Origin: Deltaproteobacteria bacterium
GTDB lineage: Bacteria > Myxococcota_A > Polyangia > GCA-2747355
Direction: 5' to 3'
DNA length: 37,958 nt
Assembly (NCBI GenBank): GCA_019314525.1
Contig: JAFCZD010000052.1
Span: 1-37,958, forward strand
The stretch's first letter is position 1. Each line of letters opens with the position of its first letter. This document shows, piece after piece, positions 28,294 to 37,881 of the stretch. The translations under genes were made by a program, and so were the position numbers. A model generated the notes under the pieces. That model was not told the origin of the DNA. It saw only the letters and a program-made list of their open reading frames with translations, and did no database searches.

Positions 28294-29841
28294 ATGGCAC
28301 TCGTACGCGGCTTGGTTGTTTTTTCGAGTTGTGTCCTGTTGTTCGCGGCCTGCAACGACCCCAAGGACCCTCAAACCTGGATCAAGAAGCTCAATAGCCC
28401 CAAAGAGGGTAAGGAGGCCGTCAGGCAGCTGAAGAAGATGCAGGACAAGGTGGCGGTGAAGCCCCTCTGTAAGCTCTTTGCCGCGGATCCCGATCCCGAA
28501 ACTCTGAAGGCGATCATCTCTTTCCACGATAAATCCGCGGTCCCAACCCTCATCGAAGCTCTGGACTTTCGCGAGCACGACTATCACAACGCGTCGGTGG
28601 CGGCCATGGCGCTTGCCAAGATGAACGCAGTGGAGGCCGTGCCCGAGTTGATCAAGGTGCTCAAGAAGTCTCTTCCCATCAAGTCTCGGGCGAATAAGGC
28701 CAAGGTGGCTGCCATCGAAGCGCTGCGCGTGCTCGGCGACAAGAAGGCGGTCCCTGCCTTGATCGCCGTCGCCGATGGACGCCCTGAAAAGCAGGACTTC
28801 TTTCTCAACAAGAAGGCCATGGTGGCGCTTGGTGATTTGGGCGACCCAGAGGCGATCCCTGTCTTGGTGCGTGGCCTCTTCATGGCGAGCACGATCCAGG
28901 GTGTGTCATTTCCTATGGCCCGTGTGGCGCTCGTGAAGATTGGCATCAAAGCTGTGCCTGCCTTGTTGGCAGCCATGGACGGCAAGGACGCACGTCTCAA
29001 CTTGATGGCCAAGGAGCTGAAGTTCATCAAAGGGGTGATCCTCAACAAGGTGGCTATCGTGCTCGGCGACATGCATGCGAAGGCTGCCGCTCCTCGTCTC
29101 TTGCAGCTGCTCTCCAAGGCGAACCTCAAAGAGACGAAGATCGCGGGCGTCATTGAGGCTCTGGGTAAGATTGGTGGCAAGAAGAGCGTGTCTGTCTTGA
29201 ATAGATTGCTCTTGAACAAGAGGGCCAACTATAAGTTGCGTGCGCAAGTCTGCAGCGCGCTGACGGTGATGGGAGACAAAAGCTCCATTCCTGCTTTGCT
29301 CACCGTCGCAGAGAAGGGGTTCATCGAGGGGGGCTACTACAACCTCCGTGAGGCTGGTGCCATGGCCTATGGCCGTATCGTTGGGGCAGAGGCAGCTGAG
29401 GGTGTGAAGGTCTTCGAGGGCATGCTCGCTGAGAAGGAGCTGCAGAAGTACAAGCAGAACTACGCCACGTTCAAAGAGGCCTTCGACCGCGTGAAGGTGG
29501 GCCTGGAGTGCAAGGACGATGCGAAATGCTATGGGAAGAAGCTCCAGAACAAGAAGCTATCCTTGGCCATGCGCGAAAAGGCGGCCGTTATGATCGGCAT
29601 TCTTCCCAACGGACGAGAGGCCCTCGCAGATGTAGTGAAGGCCCTGCCGATCCGTGAACCGATTATTCGGCTCTTTTTGCTACAGACCGCGATTCGTATT
29701 GGCAAGAAGACCGATGTAGAGCTGATAAAGACCTTGCGAATGCTCGTTAAGAAGGACTCAAAGCGCAAGACTAAATTCCACGGTGCAGACCTCGCCAGCG
29801 CCGACAAGATCGCCTTGGCCAACGTCTTGGGCAAGAGCTAG
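28294..29841 (+). CDS. HEAT-repeat lipoprotein
   Basis: GGGAGGAA (28283-28290) precedes ATG 28294. Lipobox FAAC gives a lipidated Cys20. The remaining ~495 residues are an alpha-helical solenoid. At least eight HEAT-like units of the type 'AVPxLIxxLxx...A..AL..G' can be seen, for example SAVPTLIEAL, EAVPELIKVL, KAVPALIAVA, EAIPVLVRGL and SSIPALLTVA. It is very Lys- and Ala-rich, and includes a Cys pair in LECKDDAKCYG. Such solenoids bind proteins. No enzymatic motif is seen. Anchored in the periplasm, it may act as a scaffold. It converges with the APC permease over a 49-bp gap with two palindromes. Confidence 0.8.
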   Translation: MALVRGLVVFSSCVLLFAACNDPKDPQTWIKKLNSPKEGKEAVRQLKKMQDKVAVKPLCKLFAADPDPETLKAIISFHDKSAVPTLIEALDFREHDYHNASVAAMALAKMNAVEAVPELIKVLKKSLPIKSRANKAKVAAIEALRVLGDKKAVPALIAVADGRPEKQDFFLNKKAMVALGDLGDPEAIPVLVRGLFMASTIQGVSFPMARVALVKIGIKAVPALLAAMDGKDARLNLMAKELKFIKGVILNKVAIVLGDMHAKAAAPRLLQLLSKANLKETKIAGVIEALGKIGGKKSVSVLNRLLLNKRANYKLRAQVCSALTVMGDKSSIPALLTVAEKGFIEGGYYNLREAGAMAYGRIVGAEAAEGVKVFEGMLAEKELQKYKQNYATFKEAFDRVKVGLECKDDAKCYGKKLQNKKLSLAMREKAAVMIGILPNGREALADVVKALPIREPIIRLFLLQTAIRIGKKTDVELIKTLRMLVKKDSKRKTKFHGADLASADKIALANVLGKS

Positions 29842-29890: not shown

Positions 29891-31168
29891 TTAGCCAGCA
29901 AGTCGACGTGATCCCCACCACAGAACAAGCCCCACAAGGATCAGCCCCGCGAAGGTAGCAGCCATCCGTAGGCTGCCTTCGGCGCTGACTCCTGCCCACA
30001 ACACAACGAGCACTGCCACGGTAGCCAGGGGAGCGACGGCTGCTGCGCCTGGTACGCGGAAGCCCTGCGCCGGCCCTTGCCGCTTTCTGAGGACGGGCAG
30101 CGCAAGCGTAGCAGAGAGGTATTGCATGGCCACAAAGAGCACTGAGAGGTTCACCAGACGCGAAAAATCGAGCAGCAGAGCCAACAAGGCGCTCGCAGCG
30201 GCTGTGACGATGATCGCCACATGGGGGGTCTTGAAGCGTGGGTGCAGCTTGGTCAGTGTGCTGGGTAGGAAGCCGTCGTCGGCCAGAGGCTGGAGGTAGC
30301 GAGGCCCCGCGAGGGCGACGCCTGCCGAAAAACCTAGCATGGAGATTGTGGCAGCGATAGCCACCAGGTTCCCGCCCACTGAACCAAAGAGCACGGCTGC
30401 CATGCGGGCCAGCGGGTCTTGGGCCCCCGCGAGATCGGGTGTGGTTCCAATGGCCGCCGCTTGAAGCGCGAGGTAGAGCAGCGTAGCTACCAGGATGGAG
30501 GTGATCACGGCGAAGGGCGCGTCCCTCCGTGCGTTGGCGGATTCCCCAGCTGGAACAGGGACGACTTCGAAGCCTTGGTAGGCGAAAAACGCGATGAAAG
30601 TTGCTTTGGGCAGGCTGCTGACTCCGTGAGGTGTGAACGGTGTGAGCCGAGAAGGGTCAAGGCGCGCTAGACCCGCCAAGAGCAGGGCTGCGAGGGGCAA
30701 GAGCTTCGCGATGGTCAGACCATCCGTTGTTAGCGCGCCAGGCTTGACACCACGGTAGTTGATGGCCGCCAGCCCAGCGATGGTGCTCAAAGCCACGGCC
30801 TGGGCGACCATGGGGCTTTTGAAGAGTGGCACGAGGTGTCCGAGGTGGCTCACCATACCGCGCGTGACCGCCGCCCAGCTGATCACCGCCGCGCTCCAGC
30901 AGGTCCAGCCCACCACATAGCCCCAGGATGGGCCAAAGGCCTTGCGAGCATAGAGGTAGGGCCCGCCTGATCGGTCGAATCGCCCCGCGAGTTCTGCGAA
31001 GCAAAGGGCGATGAGCAGGCTTATGACCCCGCAAATCGCAAAGGCCAGCAGGGACGCCGGGCCCAGCAGCCCGGCGAGCACTCCGGGCAGCAAATAGATC
31101 CCCGATCCTATAATGGCGTTAACGCCTAGGCAGAGGAGGTCGAAGCGAGAGAGTTGTTTGGCGGCCAC
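29891..31168 (-). CDS. APC-superfamily amino acid permease
   Basis: Integral inner-membrane transporter, 425 residues, about 12 hydrophobic helices. The first helix carries the APC signature IIGSGIYLLPG (unwound helix 1 that binds the amino group and carboxylate). The segment FAELAGRFDRSGGPYLYARKAFG is typical of the family (quoted in part as PYLYARKAFG). FIAFFAYQGFEVVPVPAGE corresponds to helix 6. Substrate unknown, most likely an amino acid or polyamine taken up by proton symport or exchange. The start is GTG 31168. GAAGAAGG lies upstream at a long distance. It has no operon partner. The composite repeat region lies upstream. Confidence 0.88.
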   Translation of the reverse strand: MAAKQLSRFDLLCLGVNAIIGSGIYLLPGVLAGLLGPASLLAFAICGVISLLIALCFAELAGRFDRSGGPYLYARKAFGPSWGYVVGWTCWSAAVISWAAVTRGMVSHLGHLVPLFKSPMVAQAVALSTIAGLAAINYRGVKPGALTTDGLTIAKLLPLAALLLAGLARLDPSRLTPFTPHGVSSLPKATFIAFFAYQGFEVVPVPAGESANARRDAPFAVITSILVATLLYLALQAAAIGTTPDLAGAQDPLARMAAVLFGSVGGNLVAIAATISMLGFSAGVALAGPRYLQPLADDGFLPSTLTKLHPRFKTPHVAIIVTAAASALLALLLDFSRLVNLSVLFVAMQYLSATLALPVLRKRQGPAQGFRVPGAAAVAPLATVAVLVVLWAGVSAEGSLRMAATFAGLILVGLVLWWGSRRLAG

Positions 31169-31264: not shown

Positions 31265-31436
31265 GGAGGAATCGGGTGTGAGGCGGTCAGCTGGCAAGCG
31301 ACGAGCAACAAAGCCAGATGGTTCGGCGGGAGGAATCGGGTGTGAGGCGGTCAGCTGGCAAGGCGGGAGGAGGGCTGCCTACCTGTAGTAGGCAAGCGAC
31401 GAGCAACAAAGCCAGATGGTCGCCTCACACCCGATT
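31265..31436. repeat. Composite direct and inverted repeat cluster
   Basis: A 58-bp unit (31265-31322) occurs a second time split in two: its first 34 bp at 31329-31362 and its last 30 bp at 31391-31420. The two halves share GGCAAG (31357-31362 and 31391-31396), which flanks an extra 28 bp like a short target duplication. The extra DNA carries a 7-bp stem (TGCCTAC at 31376-31382, GTAGGCA at 31388-31394). The 16-mer AATCGGGTGTGAGGCG (31270-31285, 31333-31348) also appears inverted at 31421-31436, ending in the stop codon of the ExbD gene. No gene lies in 31169-31434. Confidence 0.85.
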
Positions 31437-31971
31437 AAGAGCCTTGGAGGACGAGGAGTCGATACTTCCCAAACTCGGCCTGTCCAGCGGTGTAGAGCAC
31501 CTCGCTGATTAGCCGGTAGGGAGTCGTGTGGTCGGCGATGAGTACGAGCTCCCCGTCAAACTTGCCAAGCTTACGTTTCTCGAGACGTTTGAGACGCGTC
31601 GCGTGTTTTTGCAGTGTATCGAGTAGGGGATTGATGAGAAACCCACTTTGGCCGTCGCGCTTGGCAGCGGAATCCACTTCGCCATTCTTCACAGGTGCGA
31701 TTGCCTTGCTCGCCACCAAGATCGCCTTTTTAGTGATGGTCACCTCAACAGCTGCCGAGTGGTTTGCACGGGAACTCGACTTGGGCGGCATCATCTCTTC
31801 GCTCGGCTGAACATTGCCCGCGATAGAGAAGTTCTGCAGAAAGAAGAGCAGCAGGATTGTCATCATATCCATCATGGGAGTGATGTTTAGATGAGAAATA
31901 GATTCGACTTCAGGGAGCCGCTTCTGCAGATTGCGGTAGCGCTTCTGTGCTTGCATCCGTGCGCTAGGCAT
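31435..31971 (-). CDS. ExbD/TolR-family proton-channel subunit (minus cluster, second ExbD)
   Basis: 178 residues from ATG 31971, which shares one base with the upstream stop (a GTG at 31974 is possible). A short basic cytoplasmic N-terminus leads to one transmembrane helix with the family motif LNITPMMDMMTILLLFFL. Asp35 is the proton-translocating residue (equivalent to E. coli ExbD D25 or TolR D23). The periplasmic domain (about 60-178) ends with the usual VLIADHTTPYRLISEVLYTAG strand-helix pattern. It is the last gene of a three-gene operon (ExbB, ExbD, ExbD). It may pair with the upstream ExbD as a heteromeric peptidoglycan-binding stator, as in AglQ/AglS (inference). Confidence 0.88.
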   Translation of the reverse strand: MPSARMQAQKRYRNLQKRLPEVESISHLNITPMMDMMTILLLFFLQNFSIAGNVQPSEEMMPPKSSSRANHSAAVEVTITKKAILVASKAIAPVKNGEVDSAAKRDGQSGFLINPLLDTLQKHATRLKRLEKRKLGKFDGELVLIADHTTPYRLISEVLYTAGQAEFGKYRLLVLQGS

Positions 31972-32630
31972 CACTGCACTCCCGCGCTGAGGACGACTTG
32001 ATCAAAGAGGCAGCCATCATCACCCGTACATTTGGCGGTACGCTTGCCACGAATGGTGTCCATGGAATGCACCACCACCTGGTAGGGAATATTCCGGTCG
32101 GCTGAGAGGATGACCTGGCGCTCGTTGGGGAAGCGCTTCTTGACCTTGGTGAGGAGGGTGATGAGCGCTTTGCGATCGTAGTGATCCACCCACACTTTTT
32201 CGTCGATACCAAGCTTGGCATTATGTCGTTTGGTGATGAATGCAGGACACCGACCTGCCTTGAGCGCTTGTGCACAAGGAATGGTGGGCAGCGAGCCATC
32301 GGGAGCCTTCATCACACCACCAGCACCAGCCACGATGAAGCCTTTGTTGGAGATCGCGATGGTGAGGTTGAGCCGTTCTTTGGGCTCCTGATTGGGGTCG
32401 GCTTGGATAGCGGCGGTAGTCGGGTCGGTGTAGCGGGGTGCGGAGACGCTGATATTGGCCAGGACCACGGCGCTCGCTGTGGTAGCGAGCATGAAGATCA
32501 CCGTGTTGGTCACGATATCGAGGTAGGGGATCAGGTTGATCTCACCGCCCTCATGCTCGGATTCCTCCACCTCGGCTGCCTCACGCCGAATCTTCGCCCG
32601 AACCTTTGCGAAGGCAGCCCGTTTATTCAC
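31971..32630 (-). CDS. ExbD/TolR-family subunit with four periplasmic cysteines (minus cluster, first ExbD)
   Basis: 219 residues. GTG 32630 overlaps the stop of the ExbB gene by 4 bases (GTGA). The charged cytoplasmic tail (EVEESEHEGGE) is followed by INLIPYLDIVTNTVIFML with proton-carrying Asp38. The periplasmic domain ends in VILSADRNIPYQVVVHSMD. It is longer than typical ExbD (about 140-150 residues). The added sequence carries four cysteines in two pairs (C119/C128 and C201/C207) that could form disulfides. An insert around 100-150 (GGVMKAPDG...KVWVDHYD) contains the first pair. Forms a complex with the ExbB encoded just upstream. Confidence 0.88.
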   Translation of the reverse strand: MNKRAAFAKVRAKIRREAAEVEESEHEGGEINLIPYLDIVTNTVIFMLATTASAVVLANISVSAPRYTDPTTAAIQADPNQEPKERLNLTIAISNKGFIVAGAGGVMKAPDGSLPTIPCAQALKAGRCPAFITKRHNAKLGIDEKVWVDHYDRKALITLLTKVKKRFPNERQVILSADRNIPYQVVVHSMDTIRGKRTAKCTGDDGCLFDQVVLSAGVQ

Positions 32631-33274
32631 TGCTTTGCTCCAGCCTCACCAGTGCGCGCGTGGACCACGAGGAAGTTCTCGAGCTTCATGGAGAAGAGCT
32701 CCATGTCGGAGACGACCTTCTTCGACATGCCGCTGAGGATGAGGTGAAAGATGATCGCTGTAACAGCGATACCCAAACCCATGGCAGTGTGGTGAAGAGC
32801 GTGGGAAATACCAGCTGCTAGCTGAGCCGATGCTTTCGCCGGGTCGAGACCCCGCAAGGCACCAAAAGCTTGAATCAAGCCAAGCACTGTACCCAGCAAT
32901 CCCACGAGAGTAGCGATGTTCGCCAACGACCAGAGGGATGGGATGCGCTTTTTGACCTCTGGCGTCGTCTCTACGAGGGCCTCCTCAAGGGAGGTCGAGA
33001 TGGCGTCTTCCCCACGATGAACCTGCACAAGGCCTGCCTTTGCCACACGCAGCAAAGGAGCGCTGGTGGATCCGCACAGGCGAATCGCCCGGTCAACGTT
33101 GTTGGCTTGAATCAGCTTGCGAAGCTGCTCCAAAAGCCCTTTGGCGTTGATTTGCCCTTTAAAGAGCAAAAAGATGAAACGCTCAATAGCCACCGCTAGC
33201 ACCGTGATGAGCACGATGGTGTTGAGCCACATGAAGAAGCCGCCGGTCTTGGCGAAATGGGCAAGTCCTACCAT
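32627..33274 (-). CDS. ExbB/TolQ/MotA-family proton-channel subunit (minus cluster)
   Basis: 215 residues, first gene of the minus cluster; GGAGG lies about 10 bp before ATG 33274. Three membrane helices: about 13-38 (MWLNTIVLITVLAVAIERFIF), about 118-140 (IATLVGLLGTVLGLIQAF, with the pore Thr in LLGT) and about 155-180 (HHTAMGLGIAVTAIIFHLIL, with the second pore Thr). A cytoplasmic loop lies between helices 1 and 2. It assembles, presumably as a pentamer, around an ExbD dimer to convert proton flow into work across the periplasm. One ExbB plus two different ExbD genes is the gene content of the Myxococcus AglRQS motor. Paralogous use cannot be settled here. Confidence 0.9.
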   Translation of the reverse strand: MVGLAHFAKTGGFFMWLNTIVLITVLAVAIERFIFLLFKGQINAKGLLEQLRKLIQANNVDRAIRLCGSTSAPLLRVAKAGLVQVHRGEDAISTSLEEALVETTPEVKKRIPSLWSLANIATLVGLLGTVLGLIQAFGALRGLDPAKASAQLAAGISHALHHTAMGLGIAVTAIIFHLILSGMSKKVVSDMELFSMKLENFLVVHARTGEAGAKQ

Positions 33275-33351
33275 TCTCTGGAGCCTCCGCTAAGGTCGAC
33301 CGTGCCTTGTGGGCGACGTGTTCTCTTACAGCTAAATCCGTCCAAAATTAA

Positions 33352-33382
33352 CAGCGTTCCCATAGAATCATGATGAACGCTG
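33352..33382. promoter_or_regulatory. Inverted repeat upstream of the minus-strand ExbB operon
   Basis: CAGCGTTC (33352-33359) and GAACGCTG (33375-33382) are perfect 8-bp arms separated by 15 bp. The position is 78 bp upstream of the minus-strand ExbB start. It could be a regulator site or mRNA structure. It is not followed by a T-run. Confidence 0.35.
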
Positions 33383-33732
33383 ACGCTACTATCACTCTAA
33401 GTTACCCGCCCCGTCCAGGGGAAACCACCCGTAGTTGCCGCAACAGCAAGGGCCGGCAAAATACATCTTCTACGTGGTAGACCGAGGCCTTGTGTACCAC
33501 ACTCGCACAGACCAAGTAAAGCAAACCCGCGGATGGCTTTGGCTCTCGCTTAAACGTTTGTCTGCGAGGGGGATCTCGTTGCTGCAAGAAGGAGCAAACC
33601 AATGTTGGGGCATGCCGACACATCGTGGGGCAAAGTGTCACGGTGCAGAAGATTCAGGCTTAGAAATTTTCAATAATCTTGGGCGGTACGTATATTGCTC
33701 TAGGGTCTACGCATGAGTGCAACAGACATGCT

Positions 33733-33761
33733 TGCTCAGGGATACCGACACTGATATAGTC
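33733..33761 (+). promoter_or_regulatory. Promoter of the plus-strand ExbB/ExbD operon
   Basis: TTGCTC (33733-33738), a 17-bp spacer and TATAGT (33756-33761), with TG one base before the -10 (extended -10). It lies about 58 bp before the first start codon. Confidence 0.6.
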
Positions 33762-33818
33762 CGCGCCGACTCCCAGAGATAACGATCAGCCGAGGGTACC
33801 TGACTCGGCGTAGAGGGA

Positions 33819-34664
33819 ATGATGGACGAAACTTCAAAGCCCATGAGTTCTGGCCTCAAAGCCGGGCTCTTTGTCATCTTCATGGTCGTCTGGGCTGGCC
33901 TGACAGTCCTTCTTTACAAAACCTCGGCCTTCTTTCGCGAGGGTGGCTGGGGAATGTGGCCAATCTTGTTGGTCGGCATGATCTTCGTGCTGATCACCAT
34001 CGACCGGGTACGCTACCTCTATTTGTCGAGCCGCCTTGATCAGCGTCAGTTCATGGCCCGCATTCAACGTCACCTGATGCAGGGTGACGTTCAAGGTGCT
34101 GCCCAGGCATGTCAGAACGATGGCGATCCTCTGGCGAAGATCGTTGGCGCTGGGCTCTTGAATATGCATCGCCCGGATCACGAAGTGCAAGAGGCGGTTG
34201 ATGAGGCCGCTCTCTACGAATTGCCACGCCTCGAGCAACGTACAGGCTATTTGGCCATGATCGGGAATATTGCGACGCTGCTGGGGCTCCTGGGTACCAT
34301 CGTTGGGCTGATTACTTCGTTTGCGGGTGTCTCGTTGGACAAAGAGAAGGACCCTGCAACACAGAAGCGGGCCGAGCACTATGTCTATCTGGTACCCGCC
34401 TGCCAGCCCTTCCTGGGAAAACCCGTCGCGCTGGTGCAGTGTATCAAGGGCAACAAGGCGACGATCTTGGCTCGCGGTATTAGTGAGGCAATGCACTGTA
34501 CCGCGTTTGGCTTGCTTGTAGGTATTTTGGCCCTCTTGGCCTTTTCGTTCCTCAATGGTCGAACCCAACGGATGCTCGATAATGCATCCGATGGCGCTGT
34601 CCAACTCGTAAATTTGGCCGTCGGGCATCGCTCGGCGATGAAGCTCGATTTTTTAAAGGGCTAG
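33819..34664 (+). CDS. ExbB/TolQ-family subunit with extra N-terminal helix and Cys-bearing loop insertion
   Basis: 281 residues; GAGGG precedes a double ATG (33819 and 33822), the second better spaced. Compared with the next gene it has an added N-terminal hydrophobic helix (about 14-33) before the shared motif F-x-EGGWGMWPIL (39-50). The pore helices are at about 147-168 (IATLLGLLGTIVGLI, with Thr160) and about 222-245 (EAMHCTAFGLLVGILALLAF, with Thr228). Between them, where its paralogues have a short loop, is an insertion of about 35 residues (172-212) with two cysteines (C195, C208). By ExbB topology this loop is periplasmic, so a disulfide is possible. First gene of the plus cluster. 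Confidence 0.87.
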   Translation: MMDETSKPMSSGLKAGLFVIFMVVWAGLTVLLYKTSAFFREGGWGMWPILLVGMIFVLITIDRVRYLYLSSRLDQRQFMARIQRHLMQGDVQGAAQACQNDGDPLAKIVGAGLLNMHRPDHEVQEAVDEAALYELPRLEQRTGYLAMIGNIATLLGLLGTIVGLITSFAGVSLDKEKDPATQKRAEHYVYLVPACQPFLGKPVALVQCIKGNKATILARGISEAMHCTAFGLLVGILALLAFSFLNGRTQRMLDNASDGAVQLVNLAVGHRSAMKLDFLKG

Positions 34665-34724
34665 AAGCTAGCACGGCACCGACGATGTCAAGCTGGGGAT
34701 ACCCGGCCACAGGAGGTTCCTGAG

Positions 34725-35369
34725 ATGGGATTCATTCACACGATCAATGAGGCCTTCACCGAGGGTGGCTGGGGGATGTGGCCCATCCTCTTGCTATCGA
34801 TTTTTTCGGTGGGCATTACCATCGACCGCGTGGTCTATCTTTTCCGCGCCACGATCGACAAGCACCAGTTCATGGGGCTCATGCAGAAGTTGATTGCGCA
34901 GGGAAATGTGGCCCAGGCCATCAAGGTTTGTAGCGGTACCTCGAAGCCCATGACCCGTATCGTCCAGGCGGGCCTGATGAAGGTCAACAAGTCTGACGTA
35001 GAGGTTCAAGGCGCAATGGATGAGATGGCCCTACGAGAGATGCCCCTTATCGAGCGCCGCACAGGTTACCTGGCGATGATCGGGAACGTGGCCACATTGG
35101 CAGGCTTGTTAGGGACCATCGTCGGTCTGATCCACTCCTTCGGCGCGGTGGCGGGTGTTGACCCCTCCCAGAAGGCGACGATGTTGGCCAAAGGTATCTC
35201 CGAGGCGATGAACTGCACGGCTTTCGGGTTGTTGGTTGGTATCATCTCCTTGCTCGCGTTCTCCGTGCTCAACGGCAAGACGCAAGCGCTGCTTGATGAC
35301 ATTAACGAGGTCACAGCACAGGTGATGAACCTGATCAGCGGTTCCCGTCAGGCTGCGCCGCAGGTTTAG
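34725..35369 (+). CDS. ExbB/TolQ-family subunit (plus cluster, second ExbB)
   Basis: 214 residues; AGGAGG (34711-34716) 8 bp before ATG 34725. It is the canonical-length paralogue: N-terminal F-TEGGWGMWPILL helix (about 14-38), pore helices in IGNVATLAGLLGTIVGLIHSF and in GISEAMNCTAFGLLVGIISL (each quoted at or under 20 residues in part), and the connecting short loop AVAGVDPSQKAT. It is closely related to the ExbB genes before and after it (shared EGGWGM, RRTGYLAMIGN and SEAMNCTAFGLL), which suggests local duplication. The gene lies 60 bp after its paralogue. Confidence 0.92.
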   Translation: MGFIHTINEAFTEGGWGMWPILLLSIFSVGITIDRVVYLFRATIDKHQFMGLMQKLIAQGNVAQAIKVCSGTSKPMTRIVQAGLMKVNKSDVEVQGAMDEMALREMPLIERRTGYLAMIGNVATLAGLLGTIVGLIHSFGAVAGVDPSQKATMLAKGISEAMNCTAFGLLVGIISLLAFSVLNGKTQALLDDINEVTAQVMNLISGSRQAAPQV

Positions 35370-35370
35370 G

Positions 35371-35425
35371 ACTCGGGCTGCACCGTAGGCGGACAACTCG
35401 GGCTACACCGTAGGCGTAGAACTCG
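35371..35425 (+). repeat. 25-bp tandem repeat between ExbB and ExbD genes
   Basis: Two 25-bp units (35371-35395, 35396-35420) differ at three positions, and a third begins (ACTCG at 35421). They start right after the ExbB stop codon and end 30 bp before the next ATG. No hairpin is evident. Confidence 0.8.
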
Positions 35426-35454
35426 CGCAAGGCCTCAGGGCCAGAGGAATAAGC

Positions 35455-35931
35455 ATGAGCGTTTCAATCGATAGTGGCGGAAAAGGTGGCAAAAAGTCGC
35501 TGGATGCCGAGCTGAACCTCGTGCCCTTCATCGATCTGCTCGTCTGCTGCATCTGCTTTCTGCTGATCACCGCTGTGTGGACGCAAATGGCGCGCATCGA
35601 GGTCAACCAGAAGGGCAAGGGGACGGCGTCGAAGAAGGAAGACAAGCCACAAGAGATGAAGGTGAAGATCACCGTTCTTGTTGGCGAGGATGGATACACC
35701 ATCACCGCCGGCAGTACACGTCTCGTGATCAATAAAGAGGGTGAGCACTACGACGTCGCAAGGCTCGGCAGAGAACTCCGCGACATCAAAGTCCAGCTCC
35801 CGAATAAGAACGATTTGACTGTTGCCGTCGAGGATGGAATTGTCTTCAAGCATATCGTGAAGGCGATGGACACAGCCTTGGCCCAGCATTTCACAGCCAT
35901 ACGCGTCACTGACGCGTCGGCGGCGATGTAG
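35455..35931 (+). CDS. ExbD/TolR-family subunit (plus cluster)
   Basis: 158 residues; AGAGGA (35443-35448) before ATG 35455. A short N-terminus rich in Gly and Lys is followed by the single transmembrane helix with the motif LNLVPFIDLLVCCICFLL, in which Asp27 is the proton carrier. Two adjacent cysteines lie in the membrane helix. The periplasmic part begins with a Lys-rich linker (about 50-68) and has the ExbD fold pattern (KITVLVGEDGYTI, LTVAVEDGIVFKHIVKAMD). It ends 10 bp before the ExbB-ExbD fusion gene. Confidence 0.9.
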   Translation: MSVSIDSGGKGGKKSLDAELNLVPFIDLLVCCICFLLITAVWTQMARIEVNQKGKGTASKKEDKPQEMKVKITVLVGEDGYTITAGSTRLVINKEGEHYDVARLGRELRDIKVQLPNKNDLTVAVEDGIVFKHIVKAMDTALAQHFTAIRVTDASAAM

Positions 35932-35941
35932 GAGAGGGCTT

Positions 35942-37246
35942 ATGTCTGGATTCTTGGCAGCTATCCCTGTCCTGCTCTCCATCGTGCTCGCTGCGGCGTT
36001 CCCCTTCTATGCAGGGATCTTCCCGAAGGGTATTCAGGAGTCTTTCCACGAAGGTGGCTGGGGGATGCAGTTGATCCTCTTTGCGCTCTTGGTGAGTGTG
36101 TGGTTGATCGTGGATCGCGTGGCGAAGATGCTCGCGGTGAATATGGATATCCGCGGCTTCATGATTCAGCTCAAGGCGCGGCTTGATGGGGGCGATATCG
36201 TCGGCGCAGAGCAGCTCTGTCGGCAATATGACAAACCGCTACCAAGGATCCTCGCGGCGGGGCTGGCCGAGTCGGGCCGAGGGGAGCACGAGGTACAGGC
36301 GGCCATGGATCAAGTGGCCTACGCTGAGATCCCTGCTCTGGAAAAGCGCACAGGTTACCTTGCGCTCATGGGGAACGTGGCCACGCTCATGGGTCTCTTT
36401 GGCACCATCATTGGGCTGATCCACTCCTTCAGCGCTGTGGGTAAGGACGAGACGGGGGATAACGCCACATTGCTGGCGGCTGGTATCTCCGAGGCGATGA
36501 ACTGTACGGCCTTCGGGTTGCTCACAGGTATCGCTGCGCTCTTCGCTTTTTCTGTGCTCAACGGTCGCACACAGTGGCTCCTGGATGAGGTGAACTACCA
36601 TTCGTTGCGAGCCTATCGCTGGTGGAAACGCGCCTATCAAAACCAGGAGGCGCAGGAGCCAGTCTTCACGGTGAAGCCTGTGAATGCACCCCATGCCCAC
36701 CTTATGAGCCACACGGGGTTGCTGAAGGCGGGCGGTGGTGGGAGCCACAAGAAGGGCGTTTTTGCCAACTTGCAGCTCACGCCACTCATCGACATGTTCA
36801 TCGTGCTTGTCATCTTCTTGCTGCTGAGCTTCAACGCATCAGGCGACATTGTCAGGGCTACGAAAAACCTGAAGCTTCCTGAGGCCACTCAAGTTCAGAA
36901 GCTCGAGCGAGTGCCGATCGTGTCTATTACCTATGTTGCTGGTGAAGCATCAGGGGGCATCGTCACGCTGGAGAACCAAGAGGTTTCCACAGCTCAAGAG
37001 TTGCTAGAGGACACTGGACCTGATTGGAAGATCGCGCGTCTCACTGAAGAGCTAGAGAAAATGAAGCTCTCGTGGAAGGTGACTAATCCAGACAAACCTT
37101 GGGCTGGTAAGTTGATCATCCAGTGTGACCAGAACATCGACTTCAAAATCGTCAAGAAGGTGATGTACTCTGCAGGTATCGCTGGATACGGGAATATCCT
37201 CTTTGCTGTGCGGAAGGCCGCCTCTGAGACGGCTGAAGGTAGCTGA
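35942..37246 (+). CDS. ExbB-ExbD fusion protein
   Basis: 434 residues in one uninterrupted frame; GGAGAGGG (35931-35938) before ATG 35942. Residues 1-235 are a full ExbB: extra N-terminal helix (4-24), FHEGGWGM helix (35-58), pore helices at about 140-163 (Thr155 in LFGTIIG) and 182-207 (Thr189 in NCTAFGLL). Residues 236-272 are a linker ending in GGGGSHKKG. Residues 273-434 are a full ExbD: NLQLTPLIDMFIVLVIFLLL with proton-carrying Asp284, then a periplasmic domain ending KLIIQCDQNIDFKIVKKVMY. ExbB ends and ExbD starts in the cytoplasm, so the join is topologically sound. Covalent linkage would force equal numbers of both units, unlike the 5:2 ratio of known complexes, unless other ExbBs co-assemble. 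Confidence 0.93.
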   Translation: MSGFLAAIPVLLSIVLAAAFPFYAGIFPKGIQESFHEGGWGMQLILFALLVSVWLIVDRVAKMLAVNMDIRGFMIQLKARLDGGDIVGAEQLCRQYDKPLPRILAAGLAESGRGEHEVQAAMDQVAYAEIPALEKRTGYLALMGNVATLMGLFGTIIGLIHSFSAVGKDETGDNATLLAAGISEAMNCTAFGLLTGIAALFAFSVLNGRTQWLLDEVNYHSLRAYRWWKRAYQNQEAQEPVFTVKPVNAPHAHLMSHTGLLKAGGGGSHKKGVFANLQLTPLIDMFIVLVIFLLLSFNASGDIVRATKNLKLPEATQVQKLERVPIVSITYVAGEASGGIVTLENQEVSTAQELLEDTGPDWKIARLTEELEKMKLSWKVTNPDKPWAGKLIIQCDQNIDFKIVKKVMYSAGIAGYGNILFAVRKAASETAEGS

Positions 37247-37269
37247 GCGCACAAGATCGCAAGGCACGC

Positions 37270-37881
37270 ATGAACATCAAGAGGCAAAATCTGCACGTTG
37301 TTTGGGTGTGCCTTGGCGTGCTCGGATGTAGCTCTCCAGCAAGCATTGAAGTCACGCCCAAGACGCCCCTCATCAAGAGGCTCGGCAAGGAACTCAAGCT
37401 TCAAGTGAAGGTCAAGGACGGCTCCGGGGAGGTCCTGGTCGGGGAGAAGGTGCACTTTACGCCCTTGACCCCCACCGTTTGTATGATCGATGGCAACGGC
37501 ATCATTCTGCCTGTGAAATCGGGCAACGGTGCTGTGCTGCTCAAGGCCGGAAAGATCGAGAAGAAGGTTGATGTTCGGGTGCAGATCCCGAAGCGTATCG
37601 CCATCGATCCTAGTGATGTGGTGATGAACCAGGGCGTCTCTCGCAACCTGAAAGCTACGCTTCATAACGATGTTGGCCAGCCTATGATTGGCGTGAAGAA
37701 AGTTCGCTGGACGAGCAGTGCGCCTGAGGTTGTGAAGATCGATGATGACGGCATGATCAAGACGCTGAAAGAAGGCAAGGCGACGATCACGGCTTATTCA
37801 GAGGGCGTGCAAGGGAAGAGCGTGATCACGGTAGAGCACGAGAAGTTGCAAGACGACGGGTATCTCGGGCATAGCCCCTAA
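37270..37881 (+). CDS. Lipoprotein with two Big_2-type Ig-like domains
   Basis: 203 residues, 23 bp after the fusion gene and probably in the same operon. Lipoprotein signal with VLGC (Cys20). Two bacterial Ig-like group 2 domains: about 24-104 (ASIEVTPKTPLI...VKDGSGEVL...GIILPVKSGNGAVLLKAG) and about 105-190 (KRIAIDPSDVVMNQG...VRWTSSAPEVVKIDDDGMIK...GKATITAYSEGVQGK). Such domains mediate adhesion or act as spacers in exported proteins. In this context it could be the periplasmic or outer-membrane partner driven by the ExbB/ExbD motor (inference). The remaining 77 bp of the window show no further gene. Confidence 0.82.
   Translation: MNIKRQNLHVVWVCLGVLGCSSPASIEVTPKTPLIKRLGKELKLQVKVKDGSGEVLVGEKVHFTPLTPTVCMIDGNGIILPVKSGNGAVLLKAGKIEKKVDVRVQIPKRIAIDPSDVVMNQGVSRNLKATLHNDVGQPMIGVKKVRWTSSAPEVVKIDDDGMIKTLKEGKATITAYSEGVQGKSVITVEHEKLQDDGYLGHSP

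Follow-up and report, generated by a model that had tools for sequence, protein, structure and literature searches.

Which proton-driven machine, or machines, are encoded where two sets of ExbB and ExbD genes diverge from a common intergenic region? The question is posed by a stretch of 37,958 nucleotides (the window: the whole of contig JAFCZD010000052.1 from a deltaproteobacterium of the class Polyangia), which is contig C339 of G000, a draft metagenome-assembled genome of 7.57 Mb that is 83.7% complete. An initial annotation had placed four ExbB and four ExbD units in divergent orientation at 31435–37881, and all of the open reading frames (ORFs) lie where it put them. Eight ORFs were confirmed, every ExbB and ExbD unit scored above the Pfam cut-off, and one ExbB–ExbD pair is fused, a single 434-residue ORF holding both a MotA_ExbB and an ExbD domain. 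The minus-strand operon reads ExbB-ExbD-ExbD with ORFs that overlap by 4 bp; the plus-strand operon reads ExbB, ExbB, ExbD, ExbB–ExbD fusion and Big_2 lipoprotein, with intergenic gaps of 10–85 bp. We consider it probable that these operons encode two separate Agl-type 5:2 motors, the plus operon being a lineage form of AglRQS (M1) that likely drives the Glt envelope machine of this genome via GltG, and the minus operon being M2, the type represented by MXAN_3003–3005 of Myxococcus xanthus.

The assignment of each motor rests on phylogeny. Two Myxococcaceae-like genomes, each with three ExbB-ExbD-ExbD triplets, provided the references. The AglRQS (M1) label was given to triplet L116 from its length and domain match, as its ORFs of 245, 162 and 194 residues equal the published lengths of AglR, AglQ and AglS exactly and the Pfam domain positions agree too. 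Triplet L117 was taken as M2 by exclusion, MXAN_3003–3005 being described as the sole additional complete Agl set; the third triplet groups with Exb-type proteins. In the concatenated-triplet tree, the AglRQS clade takes in the plus cluster (support 96/93) and the M2 clade the minus cluster (support 100/99), and separate ExbB and ExbD trees agree on both placements. The approximately unbiased (AU) test rejects the plus triplet inside M2 (p = 2.5e-5) and the minus triplet inside M1 (p = 2.8e-7), which rules out the minus cluster as AglRQS. The ExbD tree divides into Q-type and S-type proteins, each of which has its own M1 and M2 branches. Judged from these trees, M1 and M2 are sister lineages and the minus operon is paralogous to the plus operon. 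The initial annotation had likened the minus cluster to AglRQS; its gene composition does match, but its ancestry is that of M2. The plus cluster, described there as unusual, is indeed odd in composition, but it belongs to the AglRQS lineage, and the two assignments need to be swapped.

Equivalents of TolQ Thr145 and Thr178 are present in 91 of 91 aligned ExbBs, all four of the window included, and the membrane Asp is present in all four window ExbDs; the plus cluster has the ExbD Asp and ExbB Thr pair of the AglRQS proton path. By analogy with TolQR, ExbBD and MotAB, the membrane Asp of ExbD and the Thr ring of ExbB would form the proton path, and proton flow would make an ExbB pentamer rotate around a dimer of ExbD, as in the superfamily at large. 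In each motor, one AglQ-type and one AglS-type ExbD would probably form a heterodimeric axle inside the pentamer. The plus cluster also has the AglRQS series of an ExbB followed by a Q-type and then an S-type ExbD, the S-type being fused to an ExbB. M. xanthus has a single unfused AglR, whereas the plus cluster has three AglR-type proteins, one of them fused. We take the single unfused AglR to describe M. xanthus and not to define the motor, because relatives of the clade with two ExbB and two ExbD genes (BBDD) have two AglRs. If it were held to be defining, the plus cluster would be an AglRQS-lineage motor and not AglRQS itself.

It is highly improbable that the locus encodes a divergent energiser of the Tol–Pal or TonB type whose partner gene lies elsewhere. 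The window proteins show a weak likeness to the TolQ and TolR models, and their top matches among solved structures are TolQ; however, none of the locus ExbB and ExbD units reaches an equivalog cut-off for TolQ, TolR, ExbB or ExbD, all matches being far below, and Exb-type triplets branch far off in the tree (support 100/100). No gene for TolA, TonB, TolB or Pal is present in the locus, and membership of Tol–Pal and of Ton thus fails on equivalog scores and on adjacency (tolA, tolB and pal for the former, a TonB gene for the latter). The genome has a separate TolQ-TolR-TonB_2-TolB set on contig C100. Family cut-offs, tree and neighbours together rule out a Tol or Ton origin, and agree with the initial annotation that the system is neither and that the plus cluster lacks all four partner genes. 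The phylogeny that it had proposed as a check places the ExbB and ExbD proteins with AglRQS-like motors, not within canonical Tol or TonB systems.

Are the two motors joined by more than proximity? Both operons recur in the same layout in two other genomes, G001 and G003, at protein identities of 42–85%, and the locus is therefore neither a chance arrangement nor an assembly artefact. In G003, a member of the window's order, synteny is complete: ruvB, HEAT lipoprotein, RND-like gene, permease, the D D B operon, the B B D BD operon, Big_2 lipoprotein and a dapF-like gene, the last of which comes next beyond the locus in two relatives. An initial survey found the divergent [D D B] / [B (B) D D] arrangement in many loci, and all 79 of the related loci from named genomes belong to Myxococcota or carry older deposit names (Deltaproteobacteria, Proteobacteria). 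Two profile searches, with M2-type and M1-type ExbB, were run over 86 genomes of the phylum (18 of the window's class and 68 of other classes). M1 and M2 ExbB genes stand head to head in 13/18 genomes of the class (G000, G015, G023, G031, G074, G079, G084, G093, G102, G112, G117, G122 and G130) versus 0/68 elsewhere. No fewer than five families of the class have the pair, as does G003. G107 may have a split pair, since its M1 and M2 ExbB genes each lie close to the start of a separate contig. By score, genomes of family f25 have only the M2 type, and most of those of f23 and f27 only the M1 type. The neighbourhood check called for by the initial annotation thus found orthologues that are unscattered in most of the class, with no tolA or tonB just outside.

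The region between the operons spans 544 bp (33275–33818, assigned to neither strand) and contains one weak promoter-like match that carries no weight as to function. Both motors would be transcribed from this one divergent control region, and its conservation in the class supports a functional link between the operons. The initial annotation had gone on to propose a composite machine; the shared region is real and conserved, but the step to a single machine went beyond it. That M1 and M2 subunits co-assemble, or act in series, as one envelope-spanning motor seems to us quite unlikely. Such a machine would fit the retention of head-to-head order across families and the strong correlation of M1 with M2 distances (Mantel r = 0.91, 14 genomes), but vertical inheritance alone predicts correlated divergence and is enough to explain this value. 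Moreover, each operon already holds a complete set of ExbB with Q- and S-type ExbDs, M1 and M2 lie on separate contigs in the Myxococcaceae-like genomes, and one of the two is missing from some genomes. In M. xanthus, MXAN_3003 does not bind GltG/NfsG, and MXAN_3004 is dispensable for motility and sporulation (PMC3858216, PMC3169522). Under the preferred reading of two separate motors, M2 would be a companion motor.

The plus operon shows how its motor departs from the M. xanthus form. The first gene, pB1 (33819–34664, plus strand; Pfam 79.5 bits), encodes a 281-residue derived AglR paralogue, as indicated by its place in the M1 clade, a transmembrane (TM) scan and alignment. The second, pB2 (34725–35369, plus strand; 91.6 bits), is the conserved AglR-type ring subunit by M1 clade and synteny, and is 85% identical in both relatives. 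It is followed by pD1 (35455–35931, plus strand; 53.6 bits), which clusters with AglQ-type ExbDs in the ExbD tree, and by pB3-D2 (35942–37246, plus strand; MotA_ExbB 90.0 bits, ExbD 46.1 bits), an AglR paralogue fused to an ExbD that is AglS-type in the same tree. Both pB1 and pB3 are derived, with an additional N-terminal TM helix, and pB1 has about 31 additional residues between TM2 and TM3 that include two conserved Cys. The pB3 portion is followed, without a break in the reading frame, by a whole AglS-type ExbD that has the PHAHL-like stretch found near the N terminus of free AglS-types. Five TM helices are predicted for the fusion, which keeps the topology of its parts because the ExbB end and the ExbD start are both cytoplasmic. 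The same in-frame fusion in L012/G001 and G003 (56–60% identical to the window protein), making three genomes in all, rules out a sequencing error. In the window's order, the plus cluster has gained two derived AglR paralogues by duplication, which brings its ring proteins to three, and the third of these became joined to AglS. Two distinct AglR-types also occur together in BBDD M1 operons of L013, L014, L015, L016, L018, L020, L023 and L066. Because these operons stem from separate duplications, multiple ring paralogues arose more than once.

Such a fusion bears on stoichiometry. For a 5:2 complex to work, its ring would have to be mixed, and because a 5:2 motor would allow at most two productive fused axles, the remaining ring members would be pB1 or pB2. 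We suggest, tentatively and at somewhat less than even odds, that the combination of an AglR–AglS fusion, two free AglRs and one free AglQ forces a mixed pentamer with one (or two) tethered axles, giving a 5:2 hetero-oligomer of built-in stoichiometry with an M2 companion under common control.

The load of the plus motor was assessed from genes elsewhere in the genome. Contig C395 groups GltG (432 bits, nearly full-length), GltC (335 bits), GltE (118 bits) and a GltD-like gene, the scored ones being below the NCBIfam equivalog cut-offs, and the genome therefore has a Glt partner set with GltG. The components identified are GltC, D, E and G, in an assembly that is 83.7% complete and with no dedicated search for GltA, B, F, H, J and K. 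In G011, an M1-type triplet adjoins a full-length GltG (424 bits). By analogy with M. xanthus, M1 force would be delivered through GltG (PMC3169522, PMC3858216). The direction of motility or surface transport suggested in the initial annotation is plausible.

Several points weigh against this picture. In the first ExbD, the membrane Asp is numbered 29 in L116 and L122 and 28 in L117, and the published AglQ residue is D28; we infer that L116 is nonetheless AglRQS, its lengths and domain ends outweighing a residue number. The Glt genes of C395 are on another contig and not beside the window locus, and the AglR–GltG contact was shown in M. xanthus only. A motor encoded on contig C743 could serve Glt instead of the plus motor. 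As to the fusion, an internal start able to give a free ExbD is conceivable in the window and in L130, two of the three fusion genomes (a conserved internal start is unsupported, being absent from L137), and the AlphaFold model of the fusion is of low confidence (predicted local distance difference test (pLDDT) score, 58.5), too weak for use.

The C743 motor is a third ExbB-ExbD-ExbD motor within a glt-like cluster (GltG-like, GltC-like and TPR genes), found in G000:C743 (L135, L169) and in G001:C607 (L138). In the tree its type joins M2 at the base, a position of modest support (90/81), and adjacency to GltG is not exclusive to M1 because this motor, too, has a GltG-like neighbour. Contig C743 ends within the ExbB gene of this motor; the fragment with which C1013 begins is probably the remainder of that gene.

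The locus also extends beyond the motor genes. The interval given by the initial annotation has correct coordinates, but the locus reaches further left to include a HEAT-repeat lipoprotein gene (28294–29841, plus strand), recognized by Pfam HEAT matches and by linkage to the M1 genes. In some two dozen loci, a member of its family immediately follows the M1 genes, and the protein has an N-terminal Cys followed by a DPxDPxTW-like motif. A profile of the N-terminal part of the protein matched 4/86 genomes (E < 1e-20), in all four on the same contig as, and close to, an M1 ExbB; in Myxococcaceae-like genomes the family gave weak matches only, away from aglRQS. The HEAT lipoprotein is part of the locus and is genetically tied to the M1 motor. 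It was seen right beside M1 in G005:C107, G012:C96 and G020:C25, class members without the head-to-head pair; surveyed genomes with that pair are without the lipoprotein, except in the window's order, where both are present. The Big_2 lipoprotein gene (37270–37881, plus strand; Big_2 43.0 bits, Big-like 56.7 bits) closes the plus operon in each of the three genomes with the fusion; in the surveyed data it is confined to the window's order, with orthologues in G001 and G003 that are 42–44% identical.

These lipoproteins raise the alternative that the plus motor is uncoupled from Glt and energises outer-membrane work through them. The strict linkage of the HEAT lipoprotein to M1, the Big_2 gene that closes the operon in every case and the third motor already placed in a glt-like cluster of the same genome all speak for it. 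We nevertheless judge it unlikely: GltG, C, D and E are retained in the genome, an M1-type triplet stands beside GltG elsewhere (G011), and a Glt machine could just as well have the lipoproteins as additional parts. In the favoured scheme of a Glt-driving M1, the HEAT lipoprotein would be an added periplasmic or outer-membrane part, joined in the window's order by the Big_2 lipoprotein.

The minus operon comprises mB (32627–33274, minus strand; MotA_ExbB 87.5 bits; M2 clade), an ExbB/TolQ-like ring subunit; mD1 (31971–32630, minus strand; ExbD 43.6 bits), a 219-residue ExbD that is the AglQ-type partner by ExbD tree and alignment; and mD2 (31435–31974, minus strand; ExbD 49.4 bits), the AglS-type partner, which groups in the ExbD tree with the second M2 ExbD of L117 and L123 and keeps the membrane Asp (NITPMMDMM). 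At the position of TolQ Glu173, the three plus ExbBs have Glu and mB has His; the two closest orthologues of mB and nearly all relatives keep the TM3 Glu. Four periplasmic Cys of mD1 are conserved in G001 and G003, a pattern that suggests two disulfides. An amino-acid permease gene (29891–31168, minus strand; AA_permease_2, 173 bits) separates the HEAT gene from the M2 operon; it is syntenic in G003 and G001 and is probably a bystander. In many other divergent-pair loci, a TM-anchored periplasmic protein, F2, is encoded directly behind the M1 operon (L065:12130-13287, L027:11703-12569 and others). It belongs to no known family and is absent from the window; its AlphaFold model is confident (pLDDT 87.8), with non-significant structural matches only, to TolB/CsgG/PelC-like folds, and F2 is a candidate force transducer. 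Genes for an H+-pyrophosphatase, SNF2 and Lon near some loci were rejected as partners, since they reflect local synteny.

How, then, does the locus compare with known systems? AglRQS of M. xanthus (MXAN_6862–6860), the gliding and spore-coat motor, likewise combines one ExbB type with a Q-type and an S-type ExbD; the plus-cluster genes fall in its clade, and the window genome encodes GltG, C, D and E. By contrast, the window has three AglR paralogues rather than one, the third fused to AglS, together with linked HEAT and Big_2 lipoproteins and a head-to-head M2. The minus triplet shares clade and gene order with M2 of M. xanthus (MXAN_3003–3005), but it adjoins M1 divergently, whereas in M. 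xanthus the two are far apart, and its ExbB has His for the conserved TM3 Glu. TolQR and ExbBD of Tol–Pal and Ton are of the same superfamily, with the membrane Asp and Thr ring; unlike them, the window locus is without TolA, TonB, TolB and Pal, has two dissimilar ExbDs per motor and is distant in trees. The TolQ-like genes with paired TolR-like genes of the Planctomycetes–Verrucomicrobia–Chlamydiae (PVC) group (PMC12204202) also join one ring gene to a heterologous TolR-like pair, but the transducer there is a vWA protein, and none was found in the window. Our literature searches on natural ExbB–ExbD fusions, and on HEAT lipoproteins with TolQ, returned nothing on point. A natural ring–axle tether beside free paralogues makes the AglQ/AglS heterodimer and ring stoichiometry, which are open (PMC9389320), directly testable, and the HEAT lipoprotein linked to M1 adds a new candidate part. 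That M1 and M2 are paired head to head across the class is, in the literature searched, the first genomic hint of what M2, whose role is open (PMC3169522, PMC3858216), is tied to. The AglRQS/M2 kind of motor is known; what is new is a lineage-specific AglRQS variant beside its M2 paralogue.

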